A stretch of DNA of 24,991 nucleotides. Origin: a virus. Made by a program: the position numbers and the translations under genes. Below the pieces are notes generated by a model. The model was not told the DNA's origin and searched no databases. It saw only the letters and a program-made list of their open reading frames with translations. Location of the stretch: the IMG/VR virus record IMGVR_UViG_3300042691_004259, positions 1-24,991 of that record; one strand, 5' to 3'. Shown in pieces: positions 1,792-19,777 of the stretch; positions within the stretch are counted from its first letter, which is position 1; each line of letters starts with the position of its first letter.

Positions 1792-1817
1792 AAAAGGGAG
1801 CTTCGGCTCCCTTTTTT
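1792..1817. terminator. Bidirectional intrinsic terminator between gp32 and the tape measure gene
   Basis: A ten-pair hairpin (AAAAGGGAGC, loop TTCG, GCTCCCTTTT) is followed by two more Ts on the plus strand. It starts 3 bases after the gp32 stop codon. On the minus strand the same stem is followed by TTTTC after the GCTCCC arm. The stop codon of the convergent minus-strand gene (1816-1818) falls in its flank. The UUCG tetraloop closed by C-G is an especially stable form in RNA. It should end both convergent transcripts. Confidence 0.9.
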
Positions 1818-3993
1818 AATAAGCGTATCTAGAGTTTACGTAGTTTGTTAAACTAGGATCCGTATTTCTAGTTGGCATTTTGGTCACTTGCGTAGTGTTG
1901 TTGTTAACGTTAGTGGTTGGAGCTACAACAGTATTAACAGATCCACCAGCAGGTTTCTGTGCAGCGCCAGCATTGTCAGCAGACTTATTGTATACTGCAC
2001 CGCCAGCTTTTGATGGTTCAACTGCAGCTAGTTCTGTAGCTTTGGCGAGACCAAAGTCTACCTTACGCTTGTCTAAGAAGCCAAGTTTCTGATATGCGTC
2101 ATCTTCTTTAACGATCTCAGCAACTTTATCAGCAGACCCACCTTCTTTTGCATTAGCTTTAATTTTGTTAAATGCACGCTTTGAAATTTCTCTTTCACCA
2201 TCTGCTCCAGCAGCATCTCCAGTGAGAAATGATTTTCCAGTCTTAGGATCAAATTGAGCAAAGTTATCTGTGAAGGTTGATTTACCGTTTACAGTTTTTT
2301 CACCCACAGATAAAACGTTGGTTTTATCTTCGCCGTATCTAATACTACCATCTTTATTTTTGTAAGCAGTTTTACCACTTGTTACGATGTTTTGATTGAA
2401 TGAATCTTTTTCACCACCAGCAGAAGATGATGATGACATCTCTTTATTCGATGCTACACGGTTTGTTCCTTGTTCTGGTCTGAATGGATAGAACGGACCA
2501 ATAGAAACTTTCTTATTGATAACTGGGATAGTGAAACCGATCTCAGGAATACCAAAGTCTTCTAAGAATCCAAATACCTGCTCTTTAATCTTCTTAAAGA
2601 AATCTGCTACTGGAGCAAAGAACTCTTTAACTGGATTGATGATATACTCAGTGAACAGGTTACCGATATACTCAAAAGCACCAAGGATAGGTTCTTTGAT
2701 GTACTTGTCGAATGACTCACCCAAGAATCCAATGAAATTCTTTATTGGTTCGATAACATACTCATCTACGAATCCACTTACGGCACCTACTATGTTCTTG
2801 ATGGTATCTGCATCAAACAAGCCAAATGATAAGAATTCAAGGACACCGCCTAATCCAGCAATGATAACATCAGAGAATGAGCCACCTTCTATAAATGCAT
2901 TCCATCCATCCATGATGCCGTTGATGATACCACCAATTAGCATGGCAGGAGCTAAGAACTTAGTTAAGAACTTTAATAACACAGCTGGATTGAATAGTGC
3001 TTTAAATGCAGTCATTAGAGACTTACCCAGCATGCCCATTATTCCACCTAGGAATCCTCCACCTGAACCTTCTTCCGCTCTTTTTTTCGTGGCAGCCAGG
3101 CTTTTGTCACGAGTATTTTCTTCAATACTACGCAGCAGTTCTGTTTGTTCGTTCATCAAACGAGAATTTTCAAGTTCGTTTTCAGATAAATCTGCTTCAG
3201 CGGCTAGCTTTTTAGTATTGGACTTGACTAGTGGACCTTCTTTTTCAGTTTCTTTACTAGGGCGAACTCGTGTATCTGATTTGATTAGTTGTTCAGCTAG
3301 TACACCACGTTCTTTGAATGCATCAGATCTTTTTATTTGAGTATCTTTGAATCCTAGCTCTTCATAACCTTTTATTACAGACTCATTCTTTCTCATCTTT
3401 CGTTGAGTATCCTGCTGCTCATCGAACTGACGTGCAAAAGTCTTTTCATCGCCAAAGGTAGTTCCCTTTGTTTCCATTCTCGCCTTGATATACTTTTGTT
3501 TTTCTTCACGACGATCTAGAGCATCAGAGAAAATCCCACCAGTACCACGTTTAACGATTCCTGTTTTATCTAAGAATCCACGAACAGAGAAAAAGTCTTT
3601 TAGCTGATCCTTGACACCTTCTACACGTTCACCAACACCACGGTATGTTCTTCTTCCCATTGCTTCACCAGTTATTGATTTAGCTTGATCTGCAGTCAAT
3701 GCAGATTTTGGTGTTTTTGCCTTACCCGTTTCTGGTAGTGCTTTTGCTGTATTCTTTTTAATCCAGTCAGCCAGTTTGATAACGTTACTGTTTAGTTTAC
3801 CTTTGTCCCCAAGAGTATCTTTTAAAGTTTTATCAATCTTTTTAAGATTGACATTCATCTCTTCATTCTGCTTGATCTCACTAGCAATAGAAGAATTGTT
3901 GCGGCTAGCATTTAATTTATATACATTATCTTGGTTGTTCAGCACCTCAAGTTTTTTTAAATGCTCTGCTTGCTTGACTGTTATGTTCTTCAT
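1816..3993 (-). CDS. 29: Tail tape measure protein (gp29-like)
   Basis: This 725-residue protein probably sets tail length and is threaded inside the tail tube, the role of T4 gp29 (590 aa). The N-terminal 300 residues are highly charged and helix-prone. A Gly-rich hydrophobic stretch follows at about 305-400 (G-G-G-F-L-G-G-I-M-G-M-L, then A-P-A-M-L-I-G-G-I-I-N-G-I). After it come repeated amphipathic helices of the type Y-I-x-E-P-I/N-P-V at about 410-470. The C-terminus is Asn/Thr-rich. This profile, together with its place directly after the two-ORF tail chaperone, identifies a tape measure better than sequence identity does. The start ATG overlaps the upstream stop as TAATG, suggesting translational coupling. 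At roughly 0.15 nm per residue the length would predict a tail of about 105-110 nm. That the gene corresponds to T4 gene 29 specifically is inference. Confidence 0.82.
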   Translation of the reverse strand: MKNITVKQAEHLKKLEVLNNQDNVYKLNASRNNSSIASEIKQNEEMNVNLKKIDKTLKDTLGDKGKLNSNVIKLADWIKKNTAKALPETGKAKTPKSALTADQAKSITGEAMGRRTYRGVGERVEGVKDQLKDFFSVRGFLDKTGIVKRGTGGIFSDALDRREEKQKYIKARMETKGTTFGDEKTFARQFDEQQDTQRKMRKNESVIKGYEELGFKDTQIKRSDAFKERGVLAEQLIKSDTRVRPSKETEKEGPLVKSNTKKLAAEADLSENELENSRLMNEQTELLRSIEENTRDKSLAATKKRAEEGSGGGFLGGIMGMLGKSLMTAFKALFNPAVLLKFLTKFLAPAMLIGGIINGIMDGWNAFIEGGSFSDVIIAGLGGVLEFLSFGLFDADTIKNIVGAVSGFVDEYVIEPIKNFIGFLGESFDKYIKEPILGAFEYIGNLFTEYIINPVKEFFAPVADFFKKIKEQVFGFLEDFGIPEIGFTIPVINKKVSIGPFYPFRPEQGTNRVASNKEMSSSSSAGGEKDSFNQNIVTSGKTAYKNKDGSIRYGEDKTNVLSVGEKTVNGKSTFTDNFAQFDPKTGKSFLTGDAAGADGEREISKRAFNKIKANAKEGGSADKVAEIVKEDDAYQKLGFLDKRKVDFGLAKATELAAVEPSKAGGAVYNKSADNAGAAQKPAGGSVNTVVAPTTNVNNNTTQVTKMPTRNTDPSLTNYVNSRYAY

Positions 3994-4175
3994 TAGGTTT
4001 TACTCTCTAATCTTTGTTTTTCTTCTTCTAGGAATTGGATCAGCATAGCAATGTAAATTTCGCGCTCGAATGGCATCATGTCTTCGATATCAGCTAAAGA
4101 GTACTTGTGATATTGCATAAGTGCGAAATTTAGCTTGTAAAAATTATGAAGACTCTCGTGTCCGAGCGATATCAA
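3993..4175 (-). CDS. Tail assembly chaperone, frameshift-encoded C-terminal part (gp51/GT-like)
   Basis: This short frame lies in the -1 phase relative to the preceding 243-aa ORF. It has no ATG at its beginning: the first codon that could start it is a TTG, a TGA in the same frame sits at 4187-4185 just before the slippery run, and the first in-frame ATG comes about 20 codons in without a visible ribosome binding site. The encoded sequence is helical and charged (residues S-L-A-D-I-E-D-M-M-P-F-E-R-E-I-Y), ending E-E-E-K-Q-R-L-E-S-K-T. The simplest reading is that ribosomes shift -1 at 4181-4175 and make a fusion of about 303 residues. This parallels the G/GT chaperone pair of many long-tailed phages, which is also encoded just before the tape measure gene. 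The stop overlaps the tape measure ATG. Confidence 0.75.
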   Translation of the reverse strand: MISLGHESLHNFYKLNFALMQYHKYSLADIEDMMPFEREIYIAMLIQFLEEEKQRLESKT

Positions 4176-4187
4176 AAAAAACTTTCA
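4155..4187 (-). other. Programmed -1 ribosomal frameshift site
   Basis: Read on the minus strand, the zero-frame codons are AGT TTT TTT TGA. The heptamer T_TTT_TTT (4181-4175) is an ideal X_XXY_YYZ slippery site and abuts the zero-frame stop (4174-4172). A -1 slip continues as TTG ATA TCG into the downstream 60-codon frame. The window in which a shift can work is only 12 bases, between the -1-frame TGA at 4187-4185 and the zero-frame TGA. Eight bases after the heptamer there is a small inverted repeat, CTCG-GACA-CGAG (4166-4155), which could act as a weak stimulatory hairpin. Its stem is only four pairs, so its role is doubtful. Confidence 0.75.
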
Positions 4188-4903
4188 AGCCCTTCCATTG
4201 AAACTTCATGATGCTTGCCACAAACTGGGCAATTATATTCTACCATATGTGATAATTTCGGTAGCGTCTCAAAGAATGCTTGAACCCTTTTAAACTGTTC
4301 CGAAGATAGATTTTCAATAAAGTCTATCAACTCTTGTTTTGTTTGCTCTTTTGCATGGTACACTTCACTTGAATCGTAGATATAGTCAATGCATTCTAGC
4401 ACAATGCTAAAGACAGATTCGACTTCTTGCTCTACGATGGCATCAATTGATTCTAGTTTCTTTAGAATGTCAATTGACGGATACTTCATAACGATTCCAA
4501 CATCATCAAACAATGGAATTTTATTTGTGTGATTTTCGTTTATCGTTACAGCTAACTTGGTTAAGTCCACGTTAACCTTTACTTTAGCCAACTTATCTTT
4601 TTCGCCGTGGTCTTCATCGCACGACATAATAAGTTCTACGATTTCACCAACTGATCTTGCACGCAGCTGGGTAAAAATGTATTCAAGATCAAAGATAGCT
4701 AGTTTGTCTACTTCAATAGGATCCTTGACGCATGACTTGATTACAGACTTTAGCGTGTCTACCATTACCTTTGAATCTTCACTTTGTTGGGCAATCAGTA
4801 GTGCTTTTTCTTCCCTAACTACAAATGGTCTAAATCTAACATTTTGATTCGTGGAAGGAATTGTAAGGTTGTAAATGGGTGTGTTGTTTAATGGTAATGC
4901 CAT
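4172..4903 (-). CDS. 26: Tail assembly chaperone / baseplate hub assembly protein (gp26-like)
   Basis: This 243-residue protein resembles the T4 gp26-type baseplate hub assembly family (Pfam T4_baseplate as I recall it). The N-terminus carries the F-R-P-F-V-V-R-E-E-K-A-L-L signature at about residues 26-38, followed by a helical domain. The C-terminus has a metal-knuckle-like C-P-V-C-G-K-H-H motif (about residues 223-230) and ends E-S-F-F, whose two Phe codons form the slippery site. Its position immediately upstream of the tape measure gene and its frameshifted extension indicate a chaperone that coats the tape measure before the tube polymerises. The start is fixed by AAGGAG at 4918-4913, nine bases before the ATG and inside the end of the gp16 gene. 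The gp26 versus gp51 label is uncertain. Confidence 0.8.
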   Translation of the reverse strand: MALPLNNTPIYNLTIPSTNQNVRFRPFVVREEKALLIAQQSEDSKVMVDTLKSVIKSCVKDPIEVDKLAIFDLEYIFTQLRARSVGEIVELIMSCDEDHGEKDKLAKVKVNVDLTKLAVTINENHTNKIPLFDDVGIVMKYPSIDILKKLESIDAIVEQEVESVFSIVLECIDYIYDSSEVYHAKEQTKQELIDFIENLSSEQFKRVQAFFETLPKLSHMVEYNCPVCGKHHEVSMEGLESFF

Positions 4904-4907
4904 AATG

Positions 4908-5321
4908 TTATTCTCCTTTAGCCATATTCTTGATCATTTTACTCAATTCAGATGTGCTACCTACAAAGATAGCGTTATTGTTTGTCACATTTTTTGCTGC
5001 TTCTGCCTTTGACGGAGCATCTAGCTTTTGTTTCTGCTGATGTATATCCAACAACTGCTGGTTGACATCAGCTAGTTGCTTCATCAAATTACCAACAACT
5101 TCAAATGCTCTTGGGTGCTCGCTTTGTTTAGCAACATCAAGAGCATAATTAAGAGCTTCTTGCCCCTTTATCAAAAGTTCATGTAGATTAGTTCTGGACT
5201 TATCATAATCAGATTCAATCTTGTCATTAACTTGCAATGATGTAGTTGCATCAATAACTAATGGAACCGTAGTTGTAGGTTCCAAATCAAACACCTCAGA
5301 TAATCTATCATCAATTTTCAT
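4908..5321 (-). CDS. 16: Terminase small subunit gp16
   Basis: This is a homologue of T4 gp16, the small terminase that helps the gp17 motor recognise and cut concatemeric DNA. It has 137 residues against 164 in T4. The central helical hairpin is recognisable: D-Y-D-K-S-R-T-N-L-H, then H-P-R-A-F-E-V-V-G-N-L-M-K-Q-L, then N-Q-Q-L-L-D-I-H, matching T4 D-Y-G-V-V-R-R-N-M-H, S-P-R-H-M-E-V-F-A-T-L-M-G-Q-M and N-R-E-I-L-K-L-H. The C-terminal N-N-A-I-F-V-G-S-T-S-E-L matches T4 N-A-T-V-F-M-G-S-P-T-E-L. It is shorter at both ends. It lies directly after the holin and directly before the tail chaperone. The large terminase gene 17, its usual neighbour, is not in this window. Confidence 0.92.
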   Translation of the reverse strand: MKIDDRLSEVFDLEPTTTVPLVIDATTSLQVNDKIESDYDKSRTNLHELLIKGQEALNYALDVAKQSEHPRAFEVVGNLMKQLADVNQQLLDIHQQKQKLDAPSKAEAAKNVTNNNAIFVGSTSELSKMIKNMAKGE

Positions 5322-5322
5322 G

Positions 5323-5784
5323 TCAATCGTTTCTTGTGTTTCTAACTTGTGGATCTCCAGGATCTAAGTCAAAGGTTGTAGTTGTGGTTTGTCTCATCAT
5401 TGGCATTGGTCTTGGTGCCACTGCAGGAGTATTTAGCCCCATTGGTTGTGGACTTTGCATCGGGCTTCCCATTGGAGAACTAGGCATAGCACCTCCACCA
5501 ACAGCTGCGCCAGCCATCTTTTCTTGTCCGCGAGACCATGCGGCAATACCTAGAACTGCACCCATTGCCAAGTGGAATAATCCAGCACCTTGTAGTGTTA
5601 GTGGATTCCATTGGCTATTTACTTGACCAGAACTTAATGCTTGTAGTAAACTCCATAAAACTGGGAATACTGCCATGTCTAAGATACAGATTACCATGTA
5701 TGTCCAACCCATAGCTGGACGCCACTTTTTAACCATCCAATCTTCTTGGGCGATTTTTAGTTCTTCTTGTTTGTTATTTTCCAT
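5323..5784 (-). CDS. Putative holin (3TM gene-transfer-agent-holin type)
   Basis: This 153-residue membrane protein has a charged N-terminus (about 1-22), hydrophobic segments at about 25-50 (W-T-Y-M-V-I-C-I-L-D-M-A-V-F-P-V-L-W) and about 62-84 (G-L-F-H-L-A-M-G-A-V-L-G-I-A-A-W), and a soluble Pro/Met-rich tail ending in an acidic stretch. The R-P-x-x-x-W-T-Y-M pattern at the first membrane segment matches my recollection of the Holin_3TM family (PF11351), proteins that permeabilise the inner membrane at the end of infection. AAGG lies 9 bases before the ATG. It is not related to the T4 holin t. No endolysin gene lies next to it. Another small membrane protein with a structural role cannot be excluded. 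Confidence 0.65.
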   Translation of the reverse strand: MENNKQEELKIAQEDWMVKKWRPAMGWTYMVICILDMAVFPVLWSLLQALSSGQVNSQWNPLTLQGAGLFHLAMGAVLGIAAWSRGQEKMAGAAVGGGAMPSSPMGSPMQSPQPMGLNTPAVAPRPMPMMRQTTTTTFDLDPGDPQVRNTRND

Positions 5785-9574: not shown

Positions 9575-10876
9575 ATGGCAGAAAATACACAAACATTAAG
9601 TTTTGCAGGTGATGTTACAGTTCAAAAATGTTCTGTTATATCATCTGCTGGAGTAGAGTTCTCTGTTAAAGGACAACTGATAGGTCTACAGATTTTCGAA
9701 GATTTATATTCTCCATTTATTAGTGGTACTGTAATTTTCAGAGATTCCTTAGACTTTGTTAATGCTTTACCATTCGTCGGACAAGAAACTCTCAGCCTTA
9801 TTGTATATACTCCATCATTAGAACGCAATGGTGGAAAAATAGAAGGGCAATTTTATATTCATAAAATGAAGGATCGTGAATATGATGGTGACCGAAGTGT
9901 TGTATATGAAATGTCTTTTATATCCAAAGAATTCTTAAATGATGTAAACGTTAAAATGAGCCGTGGATATCAGGGAAAGGTTTCTGAGATTGCACGAGAG
10001 GTATTGACGGATAAATCTGCAGCATTCGATACTGTTAAGAAATTAAACATTGAAGAGAGTAAAAATAGTATAAAGTATGTTTCTAATTATTGGTCACCTG
10101 TACGAAATATGAATTATCTTGCAGATAGAGCATTGAATAAAACAGGATCTCCTTCTTATGTATTTTTTGAGAATCGCGATGGCTTTAACTTTGGTTCATT
10201 AGACTTATTGATGTCAAGTGATAATAAACCCGTTCAGAAATTTAATTATTCAAATTCAACTCGTAATATCTCTAATTCTGGTTCAGCCAATAGAGACTTC
10301 AATCATGATTATAAAAAGATATCTACATTTTCAGTCACTGATGGCTTTAATACCATGGAACGTTTACGTAATGGTATGATTGCTTCTAGATTGCATTCGT
10401 ATGATTTAACGAGTAAACAAATAGACATCAGAAACTTTGATATATTCAACAACTTCAAAGAAAAGAAACACTTGAACGCATTTCCAACTGTTTCTACTAA
10501 CCTGCCTGCATACTATACATCAAAGATGTTGCTTGTTCCAAAAAGCACTATGCAATTTACAGGGTTTGATGACGTATCCAATATAAAGTTTTTACAAAGA
10601 AGAATATCTGAATTAAATCAAGCGAATGACTTCAAGCTAACTATAACAGTTCCTGGTCGACTGGATTATACTGTTGGTCAAACTGTAGTTATTCAATCTT
10701 TTCAAGTAGAGCCTATTAAAGACAGAGATACGTTATCAGAAATATCAGATAAGATTTTCTCTGGGCGTTATCTGGTCTCGGCAATCAATCACTTTATCAC
10801 ACAAAAGTCTCATGAATGCACAATTGAGCTTATAAAGGATTCATATATTAAAGACGTTTTTAAGGGTGGTAACTAA
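9575..10876 (+). CDS. 27: Baseplate hub subunit gp27-like
   Basis: This 433-residue protein fits the gp27/gpD hub family, which forms the trimeric ring that joins tube and central spike and holds gp5. Its context is decisive: it is encoded between gp53 and gp5 and its stop overlaps the gp5 start (TAATG). Visible features include I-F-E-D-L-Y-S-P-F-I-S-G-T-V-I-F near residues 39-54, a two-layer beta-rich profile, and near the C-terminus V-P-G-R-L-D-Y-T-V-G-Q-T-V and F-S-G-R-Y-L-V-S-A-I-N-H, features typical of gp27-like hub proteins of aquatic T4-like phages. T4 gp27 is 391 residues. Confidence 0.85.
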   Translation: MAENTQTLSFAGDVTVQKCSVISSAGVEFSVKGQLIGLQIFEDLYSPFISGTVIFRDSLDFVNALPFVGQETLSLIVYTPSLERNGGKIEGQFYIHKMKDREYDGDRSVVYEMSFISKEFLNDVNVKMSRGYQGKVSEIAREVLTDKSAAFDTVKKLNIEESKNSIKYVSNYWSPVRNMNYLADRALNKTGSPSYVFFENRDGFNFGSLDLLMSSDNKPVQKFNYSNSTRNISNSGSANRDFNHDYKKISTFSVTDGFNTMERLRNGMIASRLHSYDLTSKQIDIRNFDIFNNFKEKKHLNAFPTVSTNLPAYYTSKMLLVPKSTMQFTGFDDVSNIKFLQRRISELNQANDFKLTITVPGRLDYTVGQTVVIQSFQVEPIKDRDTLSEISDKIFSGRYLVSAINHFITQKSHECTIELIKDSYIKDVFKGGN

Positions 10877-13800
10877 TGTTATATACTGGTGTTGTTGAAA
10901 ATAGAAATGATCCACTGAAACTTGGTCGTTGCCAAGTTAGAGTATTAGGTCTTCACACAGATGATAAAAGTATTCTTCCAACGGAAGATTTACCATGGGC
11001 GCACCCGTTACAACCTATCACTTCTGCTGCCATGAATGGTATTGGGCAATCTCCACTAGGAGTTGTTCCTGGTACTTGGGTTGTGGTTATGTTTAGTGAT
11101 GGAGAAGATCAGCAACAGCCTATCATCTTAGGTTCTCTTGGCGGAATTTACTTAACTAAAAATGCTACAATTGACGGTGGTGGTGGTGATATTGTTGTAG
11201 ATGAAACACCAAGTAATGCAGTTAAAGATAGTTCTGGTAATGTAGTGACTGATGGTAGCGGTAAACCTATCACAACAACACCTAATCCTGAACCACCAAC
11301 TCCATCCAACCAACCAAAACAAGAGCCAGTAACTGCCCAAAACGTAAATAGTAATGATTCTATTCCTACAAAGCCACCTGCAAATTCAGTGGCAAAAGGT
11401 TCTGAAGGTAAAGCAGAACAAGGTATCAAAGCACTAATCGCAGCATGTGATAAAGTAGGTTTATCTACGAGATATGCCAAAGCTGCATTGCTGGGTATTG
11501 CTGGTGGAGAATCTACTTGGATTCCTCAAAAGGAAATGTACAACTATTCTCCAGATAGATTACGTCAGATCTTCAAAAGCGTTACTGATGCTGATGTTGA
11601 AAAATATAGCTACGCTCAACGTAAAGGTATGACCAGAGAAGAATTCTTTAAGTTTTTCTATGGACCAACCTTTAGAGGTAAGGGATTCCTTGGTAATTTA
11701 ACTGATGAAGACGGTGGTAAGTTTTACGGTCGAGGTTTTATTCAGTTGACTGGTCGTGGAAACTATGAGCAATACAAAAAGCTAACTGGTATTGATATTG
11801 TTGGTAATCCAGATTTACTTGATACTGATTTAACAGGCAGTGCTATAATTGCAGCTACCTATCTAACCCGTAGAGTAAACTCTTGGCAGAAATTGATGTA
11901 CGAAGAAGGATTCTATGGCGCTGCTAAGTCTGCTGTTGGATTTAACTCACCAGACATTGCAGCCAAGAAAAAGGCATACTACGAATACTTCATGAATGGA
12001 TTGAAGTCTGTAGACACGACAAATAAAGAGGCATCAGCTGGGGATGAACCACCATCTCAACAAGCCATCGAAGCGGCACCACCAGAAAAGCGTGCTGCAC
12101 TTAAAGAAGATAGATCTCAAAATAAGGTTAAAGGATTTACTGATCCTGATGGAAAGTATCCACTTAGAGACTATGCCAATGAAGCAGATACCAATAGACT
12201 ATCACGTGGTGTTTTAGAAGGCACATGCTTTGAGTTTAAAGACCAAACTTTGATTAAGGACGTGCCATTAGCCAATGGCGGGACTTGGTCACAACCACAA
12301 TCAGCTTACTCAGCAGTTTATCCATACAATAAAGTTATGGAAACTGAGTCTGGTCATATCATGGAGTTTGATGACAGCCCTGCAGCTGAGCGCATTCATA
12401 TGTACCATAGAAAGGGTACGTTCTTTGAGATTGATCCAAATGGTTCTCGTGTCACTCACATAGTAGGTGATGATTACCATATATGCGATCGTAACGGAAA
12501 TATCTACTTTGGTGGTAACGTCAACATAACTGCTGGAACTGGTGCTAAGATATTGGTTCGTGGTGATGCTGAGATACAAGTAGAAGGTAAGACAAATGCA
12601 GTATTTCAAAATGACGTAACTATTGGTGCTGCCAACGATGTTAAAATTGCAGTGGCAAATGACTTGCAAATTAAAGTTGGCGGAGAATTTACATTAGATG
12701 TTGGAAAGAATGCATCTATTTTAACTGCCGCAGATCTAACATTACAGACTGAAGGTGACACGAACATAGTTACTACTGGTGATAACTTATTTGCTTCTGA
12801 AGGAGACACTAATATTGCCGCATCTGGAGACGCTATTGTGTTTGCTGATGGAGATACTGGAATTGGTGCTTCTGGTGACATAACTATCAAAGCTGGTGGA
12901 GATGCTGGATTAGGTGGTGGTGGCAGCGTTGATGTTTCAGCTGGCGGTGTTGTTAGTATTGACGGTTCGTTAGTTGATCTAGGTAATGGAGCATCAGTTG
13001 GAGATGTCGAGAAAGCAGAATCACCAGAAGCAATTGAAGCATTAGAGTTGACTCCACCTGAAAAGGCAGAACCAGGTGGTAGTGCCATGGAAAACTTGGA
13101 ACCGCCTGCGCGAGTTGGACAACCTTCTACAAAGTTTGAAACACCAGATGAATGGAACAGTGAAGAAGGTAAAGCGCAATCAGGTGATATCAGTTCAAAT
13201 CCGCAAGCTGCAAACCCAGCAAATGCTCCATCTTCTAGCGCTAATGAAGAGTTGGCTCAACCAGCGCCAGGCAATAATGTACAGGGTACAGATGTTAATC
13301 GAGAAACTTATAAGAATGCTGACCCTAAAGCGTTCACTAGAGATTATAAACTGTCTAAGAACTTTACAATTGGTCACTTGATGAGTGCTCAAACTATCTT
13401 GCGTGATGCTGAATTGCCACCAGGTAAAGGTGACTCTTTCTCTGGTTATAAGCTGTTTACTCAAGCGGATCTTGTTGCGAACATGGCTGACTTGGCACAG
13501 AACATCTGTGAACCTATCTGGGATATTCTTGGACCACCAGCTGGTGTGCATAGAGTTTCTAGTAAAACTGGTCGTTGGGTTATCACATCAGGTTTGCGTA
13601 ATGCAGGAAACGTTAAACAATCTGGCGATACTTCGGATCATAACAAAGGTCGTGCGTTGGACTTCCAACTTTGGCCAGGTGGTCGTTACCTAGAAACATT
13701 GGATCTGGCAGCTCAGTTAGAAAAGATCTTGCCTTATCATCAAATGATTCTAGAATACAGAGACCCATCCGCATCTAAGGGTGCATGGCAAAACTGGATT

Positions 13801-13923
13801 CACATTGCTTACAAGCAAGGCGGATTGAAACAGGCATTTACGATGTACAACGATAAGACTGTAAATGCGCAAGGAACACCTACTCCTGGAGCACGTGGAT
13901 TCTTCTTATTTGGTCCTAAGTAA
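10876..13923 (+). CDS. 5: Baseplate central spike gp5 with GH19 and M15-peptidase-like domains
   Basis: This 1015-residue protein is a gp5-type spike, needed to pierce the outer membrane and open the wall. Domain order: OB-fold (about 1-92, with V-P-G-T-W-V-V-V-M-F); a Pro/Asn-rich linker to about 178; a GH19 (chitinase/lysozyme-like) domain at about 180-378, with a probable catalytic Glu212 in G-G-E-S-T-W and the family signature G-R-G-F-I-Q-L-T-G-R-G-N-Y at 285-297. The gp5 C-terminal domain begins near 430 (Y-S-A-V-Y-P-Y-N then E-T-E-S-G-H). A beta-helix needle of short Gly-Asp repeats covers about 535-712, followed by a disordered linker. Last is a peptidase M15-like domain with S-D-H-N-K-G-R-A-L-D (His922, Asp929) and W-I-H (His976). 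T4 gp5 (575 aa) has a GH24 lysozyme instead and nothing after the needle. Confidence 0.93.
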   Translation: MLYTGVVENRNDPLKLGRCQVRVLGLHTDDKSILPTEDLPWAHPLQPITSAAMNGIGQSPLGVVPGTWVVVMFSDGEDQQQPIILGSLGGIYLTKNATIDGGGGDIVVDETPSNAVKDSSGNVVTDGSGKPITTTPNPEPPTPSNQPKQEPVTAQNVNSNDSIPTKPPANSVAKGSEGKAEQGIKALIAACDKVGLSTRYAKAALLGIAGGESTWIPQKEMYNYSPDRLRQIFKSVTDADVEKYSYAQRKGMTREEFFKFFYGPTFRGKGFLGNLTDEDGGKFYGRGFIQLTGRGNYEQYKKLTGIDIVGNPDLLDTDLTGSAIIAATYLTRRVNSWQKLMYEEGFYGAAKSAVGFNSPDIAAKKKAYYEYFMNGLKSVDTTNKEASAGDEPPSQQAIEAAPPEKRAALKEDRSQNKVKGFTDPDGKYPLRDYANEADTNRLSRGVLEGTCFEFKDQTLIKDVPLANGGTWSQPQSAYSAVYPYNKVMETESGHIMEFDDSPAAERIHMYHRKGTFFEIDPNGSRVTHIVGDDYHICDRNGNIYFGGNVNITAGTGAKILVRGDAEIQVEGKTNAVFQNDVTIGAANDVKIAVANDLQIKVGGEFTLDVGKNASILTAADLTLQTEGDTNIVTTGDNLFASEGDTNIAASGDAIVFADGDTGIGASGDITIKAGGDAGLGGGGSVDVSAGGVVSIDGSLVDLGNGASVGDVEKAESPEAIEALELTPPEKAEPGGSAMENLEPPARVGQPSTKFETPDEWNSEEGKAQSGDISSNPQAANPANAPSSSANEELAQPAPGNNVQGTDVNRETYKNADPKAFTRDYKLSKNFTIGHLMSAQTILRDAELPPGKGDSFSGYKLFTQADLVANMADLAQNICEPIWDILGPPAGVHRVSSKTGRWVITSGLRNAGNVKQSGDTSDHNKGRALDFQLWPGGRYLETLDLAAQLEKILPYHQMILEYRDPSASKGAWQNWIHIAYKQGGLKQAFTMYNDKTVNAQGTPTPGARGFFLFGPK

Positions 13924-17129: not shown

Positions 17130-19777
17130 TAAAGAATAAATTATCAGATCTTATCTCTACACAACTCCCTGATCATATCAGGGAGAGTTATCCAACATTT
17201 GTAGAATTCCTTAAAGCATACTATAAGTTTTTAGAAGATGAACAAAAAGTTTATAGAAACTTAGAGAGTATTAGAGATGTTGATGATGATATACATAAAA
17301 GTTTAGATGTTTTTATAGATCGTCTAAAGAAAGAATTCGCAGTCGATTTTCCAGAATTTTCTAAAACTCCTCAGTTTTTAAAAAATACACCACACATTTC
17401 TGTTGCTCATGGAAGTGAAGAATCTTATAAATTTCTTTTTAGACAGATGTTCCAAAAAGAAGTTGATATTCGTTATCCAAGAGAACAACTATTAACTATC
17501 TCAGATTCTAAGTGGGTTCAAGATTTTTCCATTTTCGTCAAGCTAACTTCTGGTGATATAGCATCATTACAGAATAGTACAGTATTCTTAAACACTAAAG
17601 TTAATGGTATTTCAACTAAAAATAGAATCTATGTTAAACGTGTAGAAAGTTCTTTAACATCTGAGTCCATCTATGAATTGTTTATCAATAAAGACGTTTA
17701 TGGTAAAGTATTATTCGGCGATACCATAAATCAAGATGGTGTAGTTGCAAGCGTAGTAAATACTACAACTTCTATAAAAATTAAAAAAGCAGGGTTTGGT
17801 TTTAAAGTTGGTCAAGTTTTTAATATAGAATCAGATGTTGGTACTGGGTTAACTTTCAAAGTGACTGAAGTTACTGCCCTTGGTGGTATAAAAAGCACGC
17901 AGATTATAAATTATGGTATAAATTATAAGTCTACATTTTCCTTTGATTTGCCATCTACGTTTTTTGTAAATGACGTAGTAGAAACTACATTGGGCACACC
18001 AATAAAAATAAATGCATACTCTTCAGTACAACGTTACATAGATTCTGGTATAGTATCAAAACAAAATTACTACACCAGCGATTACAGTACTGATTATGTT
18101 GGTGAAGTTATGACTTCCTTCAATTCGGTCACTGTGGCTGAAGAGATAACAGCAAACTCTGCGCAGTTAGAAGTTGTATTAGGAACTGTGGCAAAGTATC
18201 AAGGATACTACGAAAATTCAACAGGTTTAGTATCATCTCCAGATAGCGTTATTCAAGATAACAATTACTATCAAAAATACTCATATGTACTACGTATAGA
18301 TGAAGCATTATCATCATACAGAGAAACTGTTATTTCTCTGTTGCATCCTATTGGAAGAAAGCTATTTGCTGAGTATGTTGTAGATAATATATTTGAATTG
18401 AACTACGAAGTCGTAGAACCAGTATTTAGAATTTTACTGCCGTTATTTGCAGGTGTTCCTACTGTTGTTAATATGTTGAGTGAGTTGAGTATGGTGATAG
18501 CCAAGCCCATATCTTCAGTTCAATTGGTTGAAGCAGATTCTTTATACTTATTCCAAAAGCCTACTACTACAGTATTAACATCGTTTGATGATCCTACTTT
18601 ACTAGATGTAATATCAGGTGCAGTAAAGGGTTCTGTTAAAACTTACCTATTTGATTCTGCTAAAGGATCTAGCGTTACTCCAGAATCTGATGAATATTGG
18701 TTATTTGAACAATCACTTTCATCATCTACTCCTCCTACTACAGAGATAGTATTTTTAGTAGCAAAGGATTCTCAATCTGAGCAAGTTGTATCTTCTTCTA
18801 GCGTTTACTTATTTGATTCTCCTAAAGAATCTATTTTAAGTACTCCAGGATCTGACGACTATTGGTTGTTTGATTCTGCTAAAGGATCTAGCGTTACTCC
18901 AGAATCTGATGAATATTGGTTATTTGAACAATCACTGAGTTCATCCACTCCTCCTACTACACAGTTAGTGTTTTTAGCAGAAAATGTGCTAGAGTCATCG
19001 CAGAGTTTATCTTCTTCTAACGTTTACTTATTTGATTCTGCTAAAGAATCTATTTTAAGTACTCCAGAATCTGATGAATACTGGTTATTTGATTCTGCTA
19101 AAGAATCTATTTTACCACAGCAATCTTTCTTGTTATCTTATGATATGAGTCAGATTCTTAATACTTCGTTGGCAGATCAATCATTTGTTGCTGCAATTAC
19201 AACAGAACGACCAGCTGAAAGTTTTATAGATACTCCAACATCTCAGATGTCTGCAGAAACTGGAAAATTTTTAGACTCGAGTATATCTAGTCCAACTAGC
19301 GCCATTACAGATATTGTAGTTGGGCTTGGTCCAGATTCTCCTGTTATTATGAGTTCGCCAGCACCAATCTTAGAAACTGGATTAGTTCAAAATTCATCTT
19401 TATTGCCACTGTCATCTACTGCGATAAATAATTCTATTCTGCTGACGACCAATACAGATACCTTTGGTAGCGCAACTACATATGTATTAGAACCATCTTA
19501 TGCTTCTGATATTAGTCTGGCATTTACATTAGAGTTTTTAAGGGGAACACTATTAGAGTCATCAGTTGCAACGACAAGCAGCCCCTCACTAGATTTCGCA
19601 CCACCAATTTTAATATCACCAGTATTTACAACTGATGATGATACGTTGTTGGTCGATAATAGCATTTCTTCTAGCACAATAAATAGTGATAGCGGGAATG
19701 TGTTTTTCAACCAATATAATGATACCTTTAGCTATTTTGCTGATGAAACATACCTTGCAAGAACAAGAACTTTTTAA
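17126..19777 (+). CDS. 7: Baseplate wedge initiator gp7-like, with repeat-bearing C-terminal extension
   Basis: This 883-residue protein occupies the gene 7 position after gp6. The N-terminal L-P-D-H-I-R-E-S-Y-P-T-F-V-E-F-L-K-A-Y-Y (about residues 15-34) is characteristic of the gp7-like wedge proteins of aquatic T4-like phages. The conserved part ends near residue 425 (H-P-I-G-R-K-L-F-A-E-Y). The rest is unlike T4 gp7 (1032 aa): a Ser/Thr/Pro-rich, low-complexity region built on F-D-S-A-K and S-D-E-Y-W-L-F motifs, with an exact 68-base direct repeat and a 73-residue period at about 509-654. A strong ribosome binding site for the next gene lies at its stop codon. The wedge role of the N-terminus is inferred from family and position; the extension has no known function. 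Confidence 0.82.
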   Translation: MIKNKLSDLISTQLPDHIRESYPTFVEFLKAYYKFLEDEQKVYRNLESIRDVDDDIHKSLDVFIDRLKKEFAVDFPEFSKTPQFLKNTPHISVAHGSEESYKFLFRQMFQKEVDIRYPREQLLTISDSKWVQDFSIFVKLTSGDIASLQNSTVFLNTKVNGISTKNRIYVKRVESSLTSESIYELFINKDVYGKVLFGDTINQDGVVASVVNTTTSIKIKKAGFGFKVGQVFNIESDVGTGLTFKVTEVTALGGIKSTQIINYGINYKSTFSFDLPSTFFVNDVVETTLGTPIKINAYSSVQRYIDSGIVSKQNYYTSDYSTDYVGEVMTSFNSVTVAEEITANSAQLEVVLGTVAKYQGYYENSTGLVSSPDSVIQDNNYYQKYSYVLRIDEALSSYRETVISLLHPIGRKLFAEYVVDNIFELNYEVVEPVFRILLPLFAGVPTVVNMLSELSMVIAKPISSVQLVEADSLYLFQKPTTTVLTSFDDPTLLDVISGAVKGSVKTYLFDSAKGSSVTPESDEYWLFEQSLSSSTPPTTEIVFLVAKDSQSEQVVSSSSVYLFDSPKESILSTPGSDDYWLFDSAKGSSVTPESDEYWLFEQSLSSSTPPTTQLVFLAENVLESSQSLSSSNVYLFDSAKESILSTPESDEYWLFDSAKESILPQQSFLLSYDMSQILNTSLADQSFVAAITTERPAESFIDTPTSQMSAETGKFLDSSISSPTSAITDIVVGLGPDSPVIMSSPAPILETGLVQNSSLLPLSSTAINNSILLTTNTDTFGSATTYVLEPSYASDISLAFTLEFLRGTLLESSVATTSSPSLDFAPPILISPVFTTDDDTLLVDNSISSSTINSDSGNVFFNQYNDTFSYFADETYLARTRTF
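18650..19116 (+). repeat. Tandem in-frame repeat, 219-bp period, within gp7
   Basis: Unit 1 is 18650-18868, unit 2 is 18869-19087, and a partial third unit begins at 19088. The first 68 bases of units 1 and 2 (18650-18717 and 18869-18936) are identical. The remainder is similar with substitutions. The period is exactly 73 codons, so the reading frame is kept. Each unit holds two related sub-motifs of the form L-F-D-S-x-K-x-S followed by T-P-x-S-D-x-Y-W-L-F, which indicates an older internal duplication. Confidence 0.92.

Follow-up and report, generated by a model that had tools for sequence, protein, structure and literature searches.

A 24,991-nucleotide stretch of viral DNA (IMG/VR virus record IMGVR_UViG_3300042691_004259, positions 1 to 24,991; here called the window) carries on its minus strand a gene of 243 codons related to T4 gene 26, overlapped at its 3′ end by a 60-codon open reading frame (ORF) in the -1 frame. 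The original prediction held that a programmed -1 ribosomal frameshift joins the two ORFs, which would encode tail assembly chaperones. The 3′ end of the gp26-like gene reads GAA AGT TTT TTT TGA and, as predicted, contains the slippery heptamer T_TTT_TTT; with the T of the TGA included, the run is 8 T's long. The -1 frame is open from 10 nucleotides (nt) 5′ of the gp26 stop through to its own TAA. Because only a single codon (AAG) separates the T run from a TGA in the same frame, the possible shift region is about a dozen bases, in line with the size first proposed. A slip at the heptamer would add 60 codons and yield a fusion of 303 amino acids (aa) with the junction ESFF-LISLG, as anticipated. 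Near the front of this ORF, the T run itself forms a TTG, the sole start-like codon there, and no Shine-Dalgarno (SD) sequence stands at start-codon spacing, in agreement with the claim that the ORF lacks a usable start. A CPVCGKHH knuckle that had been assigned to the unshifted form is present there but is not specific to it, since it lies upstream of the shift and hence in both forms.

The zero-frame product matched the whole of the PF12322 domain (positions 2-218 of 219; E 5.8e-63) and phrog_150, annotated as "baseplate hub" (E 1.4e-67); by sequence, its family is that of T4 gp26. The -1 extension, which goes by the name "short gp51" in cyanophage annotation, matched phrog_634 ("baseplate hub assembly catalyst", gp51; E 2.3e-25), and the alignment of this tail family (A2) had a mean column identity of 63%. 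The extension also matched the C-terminal end of phrog_150 (positions 238-276), indicating that some phrog_150 members hold it in one chain. Neither the gp26-like nor the gp51-like protein had a significant match in the PDB by sequence search. The features of the locus are listed in Table 1.

Table 1. Features of the gp26-like locus in the window, and positions of the heptamer-less tails in related phages
Feature	Position	Strand	Basis
gp26-like gene, putative short tail assembly chaperone (TAC-N), 243 aa	4172..4903	minus	PF12322; phrog_150; HK97 gp13-like model, residues 1-95
Stop codon TGA of the gp26-like gene	4172..4174	minus	
Run of 8 T's, including the T of the TGA	4174..4181	minus	
Slippery heptamer T_TTT_TTT at the C-terminal Phe-Phe	4175..4181	minus	direct reading; conservation in relatives
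TGA closing the -1 frame upstream, bounding the shift region	4185..4187	minus	direct reading
SD-like GGAAGGG, likely stimulator, 8 bases 5′ of the heptamer	4190..4196	minus	direct reading; family anti-SD peak
-1 frame extension, predicted C-terminal tail of the long chaperone: 60 codons (4175-3996) and stop TAA (3995-3993)	3993..4175	minus	phrog_634; C-terminal part of phrog_150; family alignment A2
Following gene (725 aa), possibly for the tape measure protein	1816..3993	minus	position and hydrophobic segment only
-1 tail without heptamer, Ackermannviridae and relatives	L043 2438-3400; L049 2489-3444; L164 446-1353; L165 488-1380; L050 2342-3260		

We collected related loci by gp26, by the tail, by T4 gp51, and from named phages, and ran the gp26 and tail profiles over all six frames of these loci; an alignment of 29 gp26 proteins (A1) was too diverse for scanning collections. 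Comparison of related loci had been proposed as a check, and both the slippery run and the -1 ORF were conserved: all 128 scorable loci outside the Ackermannviridae and the gene-pair phages had an in-frame T_TTT_TT(C/T/A) at the C-terminal FF and the same tail in the -1 frame, a count to be read with the caveat that the FF residues were part of the tail query and that the heptamer was a condition for counting loci. The only -1 loci excluded for a missing heptamer were those of the Ackermannviridae, Vibrio phage phiKT1024, and the broken contig L088, an apparent exception that has a frame error inside gp26 and an intact junction (AGT TTT TTC GGC TAA). The zero-frame stop followed 0-2 codons past the heptamer in 122 of the 128 loci. 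The same layout was found in isolates infecting very different hosts: S-PM2, P-HM2, S-ShM2, S-SSM7, Melnitz-3, Vibrio V05 (KVP40 type), ZPAH1, Aeh1, DLP6, BUCT608, PhiW-14, ACP17, Astolliot, and Atu_ph04. Homopolymer errors do occur in contigs of this kind, L088 does have its frame error, and a sequencing or assembly error could have split a single gene. The probability of such an error is practically nil: it is refuted by the finished isolate genomes (S-PM2, P-HM2, V05, Aeh1, and DLP6), which show the same frame relation, as do the 128 loci.

A non-redundant set at <90% identity comprised 107 loci, in which the heptamer was T_TTT_TTC (57 loci), T_TTT_TTT (47), or T_TTT_TTA (3). The codon preceding it encodes a variable amino acid (Ser, Asp, Asn, Ala, Gly, or Thr) and ended in T in 107 of 107 loci, compared to 61 expected from own-gene codon use (log10 P, -29), and the first Phe was TTT in 107 of 107, compared to 70 expected (log10 P, -23); both figures assume independent loci. 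At a 50% identity limit (34 loci), the respective values were -11 and -10. Elsewhere in the same genes, the heptamer was rare: among 25,331 codon positions it turned up 14 times, and 7 of the 96 other FF pairs carried it. We conclude that the heptamer is conserved at the synonymous level.

Predicted pairing with the anti-SD sequence peaked about 12 nt 5′ of the heptamer across the 107 loci (mean, -6.3 kcal/mol, versus about -2 to +1 nearby), a dnaX-like distance; part of this peak is due to a conserved Glu-Gly. Codon choice at the SD-like element was also skewed, with GAG in 41 of 75 cases versus 26% elsewhere (p 4e-7) and GGA or GGG in 56 of 107 versus 32% elsewhere (p 9e-5). The 60 bases 3′ of the site were somewhat more folded than shuffled sequences (mean folding z, -1.0), and downstream stems of at least 8 pairs were present in 29 of 107 loci versus 4.5 in shuffles; in S-SSM7, a 12-pair stem begins a few bases 3′ of the site. 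Because some of the stems at +15 to +37 may merely follow the conserved peptide, we do not claim this excess as a proven stimulator. The frames might instead be joined by slippage of the RNA polymerase on the T run, for which the 8 consecutive T's of the window are long enough to allow some slippage. We regard such transcriptional slippage as very improbable, since the 60 of 107 loci with T_TTT_TTC or T_TTT_TTA have 6 T's only, which is short for polymerase slippage, no locus departs from the codon phase, and the SD-like element stands at ribosomal spacing.

An AlphaFold2 model of the window gp26 had a mean pLDDT (predicted local distance difference test score) of 87.6. Residues 1-95 superposed at Z 7.2-7.7 on the solved structures 3fgx (Z 7.7), HK97 gp13 (2ob9; Z 7.6), and YqbN (3klu; Z 7.2), followed by 5ir0 (Z 5.3); the next unrelated match had a Z of 3.6. 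With Foldseek, the highest probability was that of HK97 gp13 (0.84). PMC9603447 regards the proteins in 2ob9, 3klu, and 3fgx as tail assembly chaperones, and the gp26 N-domain is predicted from the model to have the tail assembly chaperone fold of HK97 gp13 and YqbN. Unlike these two proteins, gp26 carries a further C-terminal domain (residues about 100-243) that had no such match. A model of T4-like gp51, built on only 7 sequences, had no informative structural match.

T4 gp26 (208 aa) and residues 1-201 of T4 gp51 (249 aa) are each a full PF12322 domain. When the predicted fusion was aligned to T4-type gp51 with hhalign, the alignment of 238 columns ran straight across the junction (probability, 99.7; E 3.7e-25), the long form of the window being one that presupposes the -1 slip. 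This end-to-end alignment shows that T4 encodes the short form (gp26) and the long form (gp51) in two genes. The chaperones thus belong to the same family, with the same short and long forms, in T4 and in the window and its relatives; T4 has two genes, whereas the window and its relatives have one gene and a -1 shift. The original prediction was right that T4 itself is not frameshifted, genes 26 and 51 being separate there. A gap noted in 2010 can be explained in this way: Sullivan et al. (PMC3037559) remarked that gp51 of cyanophages and vibriophages seemed to be short of its first ~200 residues and that Aeh1 alone seemed to have no gp51. The missing part of gp51 would be gp26, joined by the -1 frameshift, and Aeh1, in which gp51 was not called at all, has the same layout unannotated (junction GAT TTT TTC GAC TGA and a -1 tail, L163 1500-1680).

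We estimate a probability of about 0.95 that -1 ribosomal frameshifting at this locus yields a short (243-aa) and a long (303-aa) chaperone that work like gpG and gpGT of λ. The central claim of the original prediction therefore held, with the conserved heptamer and -1 tail, the SD-like element, the predicted chaperone fold, and T4 gp51 as an in-frame equivalent all pointing to it. From these features we infer the slippage, its rate, and its role in tail assembly as follows. Most ribosomes on the gp26-like gene would stop at the TGA and release the 243-aa short chaperone. A minority would slip back one base at U_UUU_UUU, with both Phe-tRNAs re-paired, probably aided by the SD-like element just upstream and, in many relatives, by a hairpin just downstream, and would then read 60 more codons to make the 303-aa long form. 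By analogy to λ gpG/gpGT, many copies of the short form and few of the long would bind to the tape measure protein, the long form would use its extra tail to recruit tail-tube or hub subunits, and both chaperones would leave before the virion is completed. In T4, the same two proteins come from genes 26 (short) and 51 (long). The λ system likewise has a short chaperone, a -1 slip near its 3′ end, and a long form with an extra C-terminal part, encoded among tail genes. It differs in that there is no detectable sequence similarity, and that here the heptamer, T_TTT_TTY, is directly at the stop and the chaperone is larger (243 aa).

Some observations weigh against frameshifting. The Foldseek E-values of the chaperone matches were not significant on their own; the downstream stem in the window is weak, with a good GGAAGGG upstream; the Ackermannviridae keep the -1 tail and lack the heptamer; and an ATG lies near the front of the tail in 33 of the 107 non-redundant loci (about 31%). 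The last of these, together with the separate gp51 coding sequence in many GenBank records, would fit a tail made as a small protein of its own, a stand-alone gp51 with its own start codon or translated by termination-reinitiation at the gp26 stop, where Limestone, K382, and 1.255.O have TAATG and PhiW-14 has TGATG. We consider a stand-alone tail very improbable. No ATG, GTG, or TTG was found up to tail codon 12 in 46 of 107 loci (43%). The original prediction had named an ATG with a ribosome binding site in relatives as evidence against itself; only two of the 107 loci, PhiW-14 and BUCT608, pair an ATG with a suitably placed SD-like sequence. The annotated P-HM2 gp51, called as a 30-aa fragment (L166 1288-1380), begins inside the conserved core because no start is available; we attribute this error and that in Aeh1 to the frameshift. 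A stand-alone tail also leaves the invariant heptamer and its synonymous conservation unexplained, and in T4 a gp26-like domain and the tail share one chain.

Loss of the slippery run in close relatives had likewise been named as potential counterevidence; the run was kept in all 128 scorable loci outside the Ackermannviridae and lost within that family. The junctions there and in relatives read GAG ATT TTC ATT TAA in Cba120, GAA ATT TTC ATT TAA in Limestone, CAG GTT TTC ATC TGA in Serratia 3M, TCA CTT TTT CGC TAA in Vibrio 1.255.O, and, similarly, TCA CTT TTC AAG TAA in K382. All five share NTT TTY, and the G_GTT_TTC of Serratia 3M is similar to the site in T7 gene 10. Neither Cba120 nor 3M has a usual start at the gp26 stop. 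The tail in the Ackermannviridae may be reached by a slip at this weaker site or by reinitiation.

In a tree of PF12322 domains, T4-type gp26 and gp51 were sister clades (95/89), consistent with a single duplication behind the T4 pair. In Vibrio phage phiKT1024, a gp26-like gene and a full-length gp51-like gene lie in tandem (L048 1311-2653) with no slippery site; this pair was placed elsewhere in the tree, and the placing is unsure because its branches are long and may attract one another. The tandem pair is possibly a second, independent swap of the frameshift for a gene pair. We tentatively suggest, at somewhat below even odds, that the frameshift is ancestral for PF12322 chaperones, that a gene pair replaced it at least twice (in the T4 lineage, with divergent 26 and 51, and in the phiKT1024 tandem), and that the Ackermannviridae moved to the weaker N_NTT_TTY site. 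If so, the family would be a natural experiment on keeping a fixed short:long chaperone ratio with and without frameshifting. As in T4 26/51, a gene pair takes the place of a frameshift in Bacillus phage 0305phi8-36, whose tail chaperonin is a precedent (PMC2147016); this phage belongs to an unrelated lineage, and the window has another layout.

G-T frameshifting has been described as conserved in long-tailed phages "except T4" (PMC5009743). The mechanism is already recognised in long-tailed phages, T4-like phages included, and the window locus is a new example of it. Vladimirov, Gautam, and Davidson (2022, Virology 566:9-15), a study known to us only through papers that cite it, identified the chaperone genes of T4-like phages; shift sites of the polyT type were reportedly identified there too. 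The PRFect paper (PMC10885494) refers to that study for T4-like phages in which a short gene is accompanied by a fused long one, and it is the reference given in the Adele paper (PMC12846349) for polyT -1 signals in T4-like TAC-N genes. This prior art surfaced only through these two papers; a direct literature search for gp26/gp51 frameshifting gave nothing relevant. Our additions, possibly published in part already, are the conservation survey, the evidence from synonymous positions, the SD-like element, and the corrections to Aeh1 and P-HM2. Many records show two separate proteins, or just one, where there should be a short and a long chaperone, and the family, having relatives with and without frameshifting, lends itself to the question of why the short:long ratio is important.

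The ATG of the gene that follows the tail (3993-3991) shares one base with the TAA of the -1 frame. The original prediction placed the fusion directly before a tape measure gene; the position of this ORF, its size, which is that of a tape measure gene, and a hydrophobic segment favor that assignment, but the family search gave no significant match (best tape-measure match, E 0.11). On the other side, the chaperone gene is separated from the tail tube gene by one that is terminase-small-subunit-like (phrog_445, E 1e-39) and one for a holin-like membrane protein (4908-5321 and 5323-5784, minus strand), an odd mixture for one gene run. On the plus strand, a 219-bp tandem repeat (18648-19109; 2.1 copies, 87% match), which contains a 54-bp sub-repeat, falls within an 883-aa baseplate-wedge-like protein. 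A gp5-like hub protein of 1015 aa (10876-13923, plus strand) matched endolysin families at residues 150-333 and 824-1002 and possibly has two wall-degrading domains.

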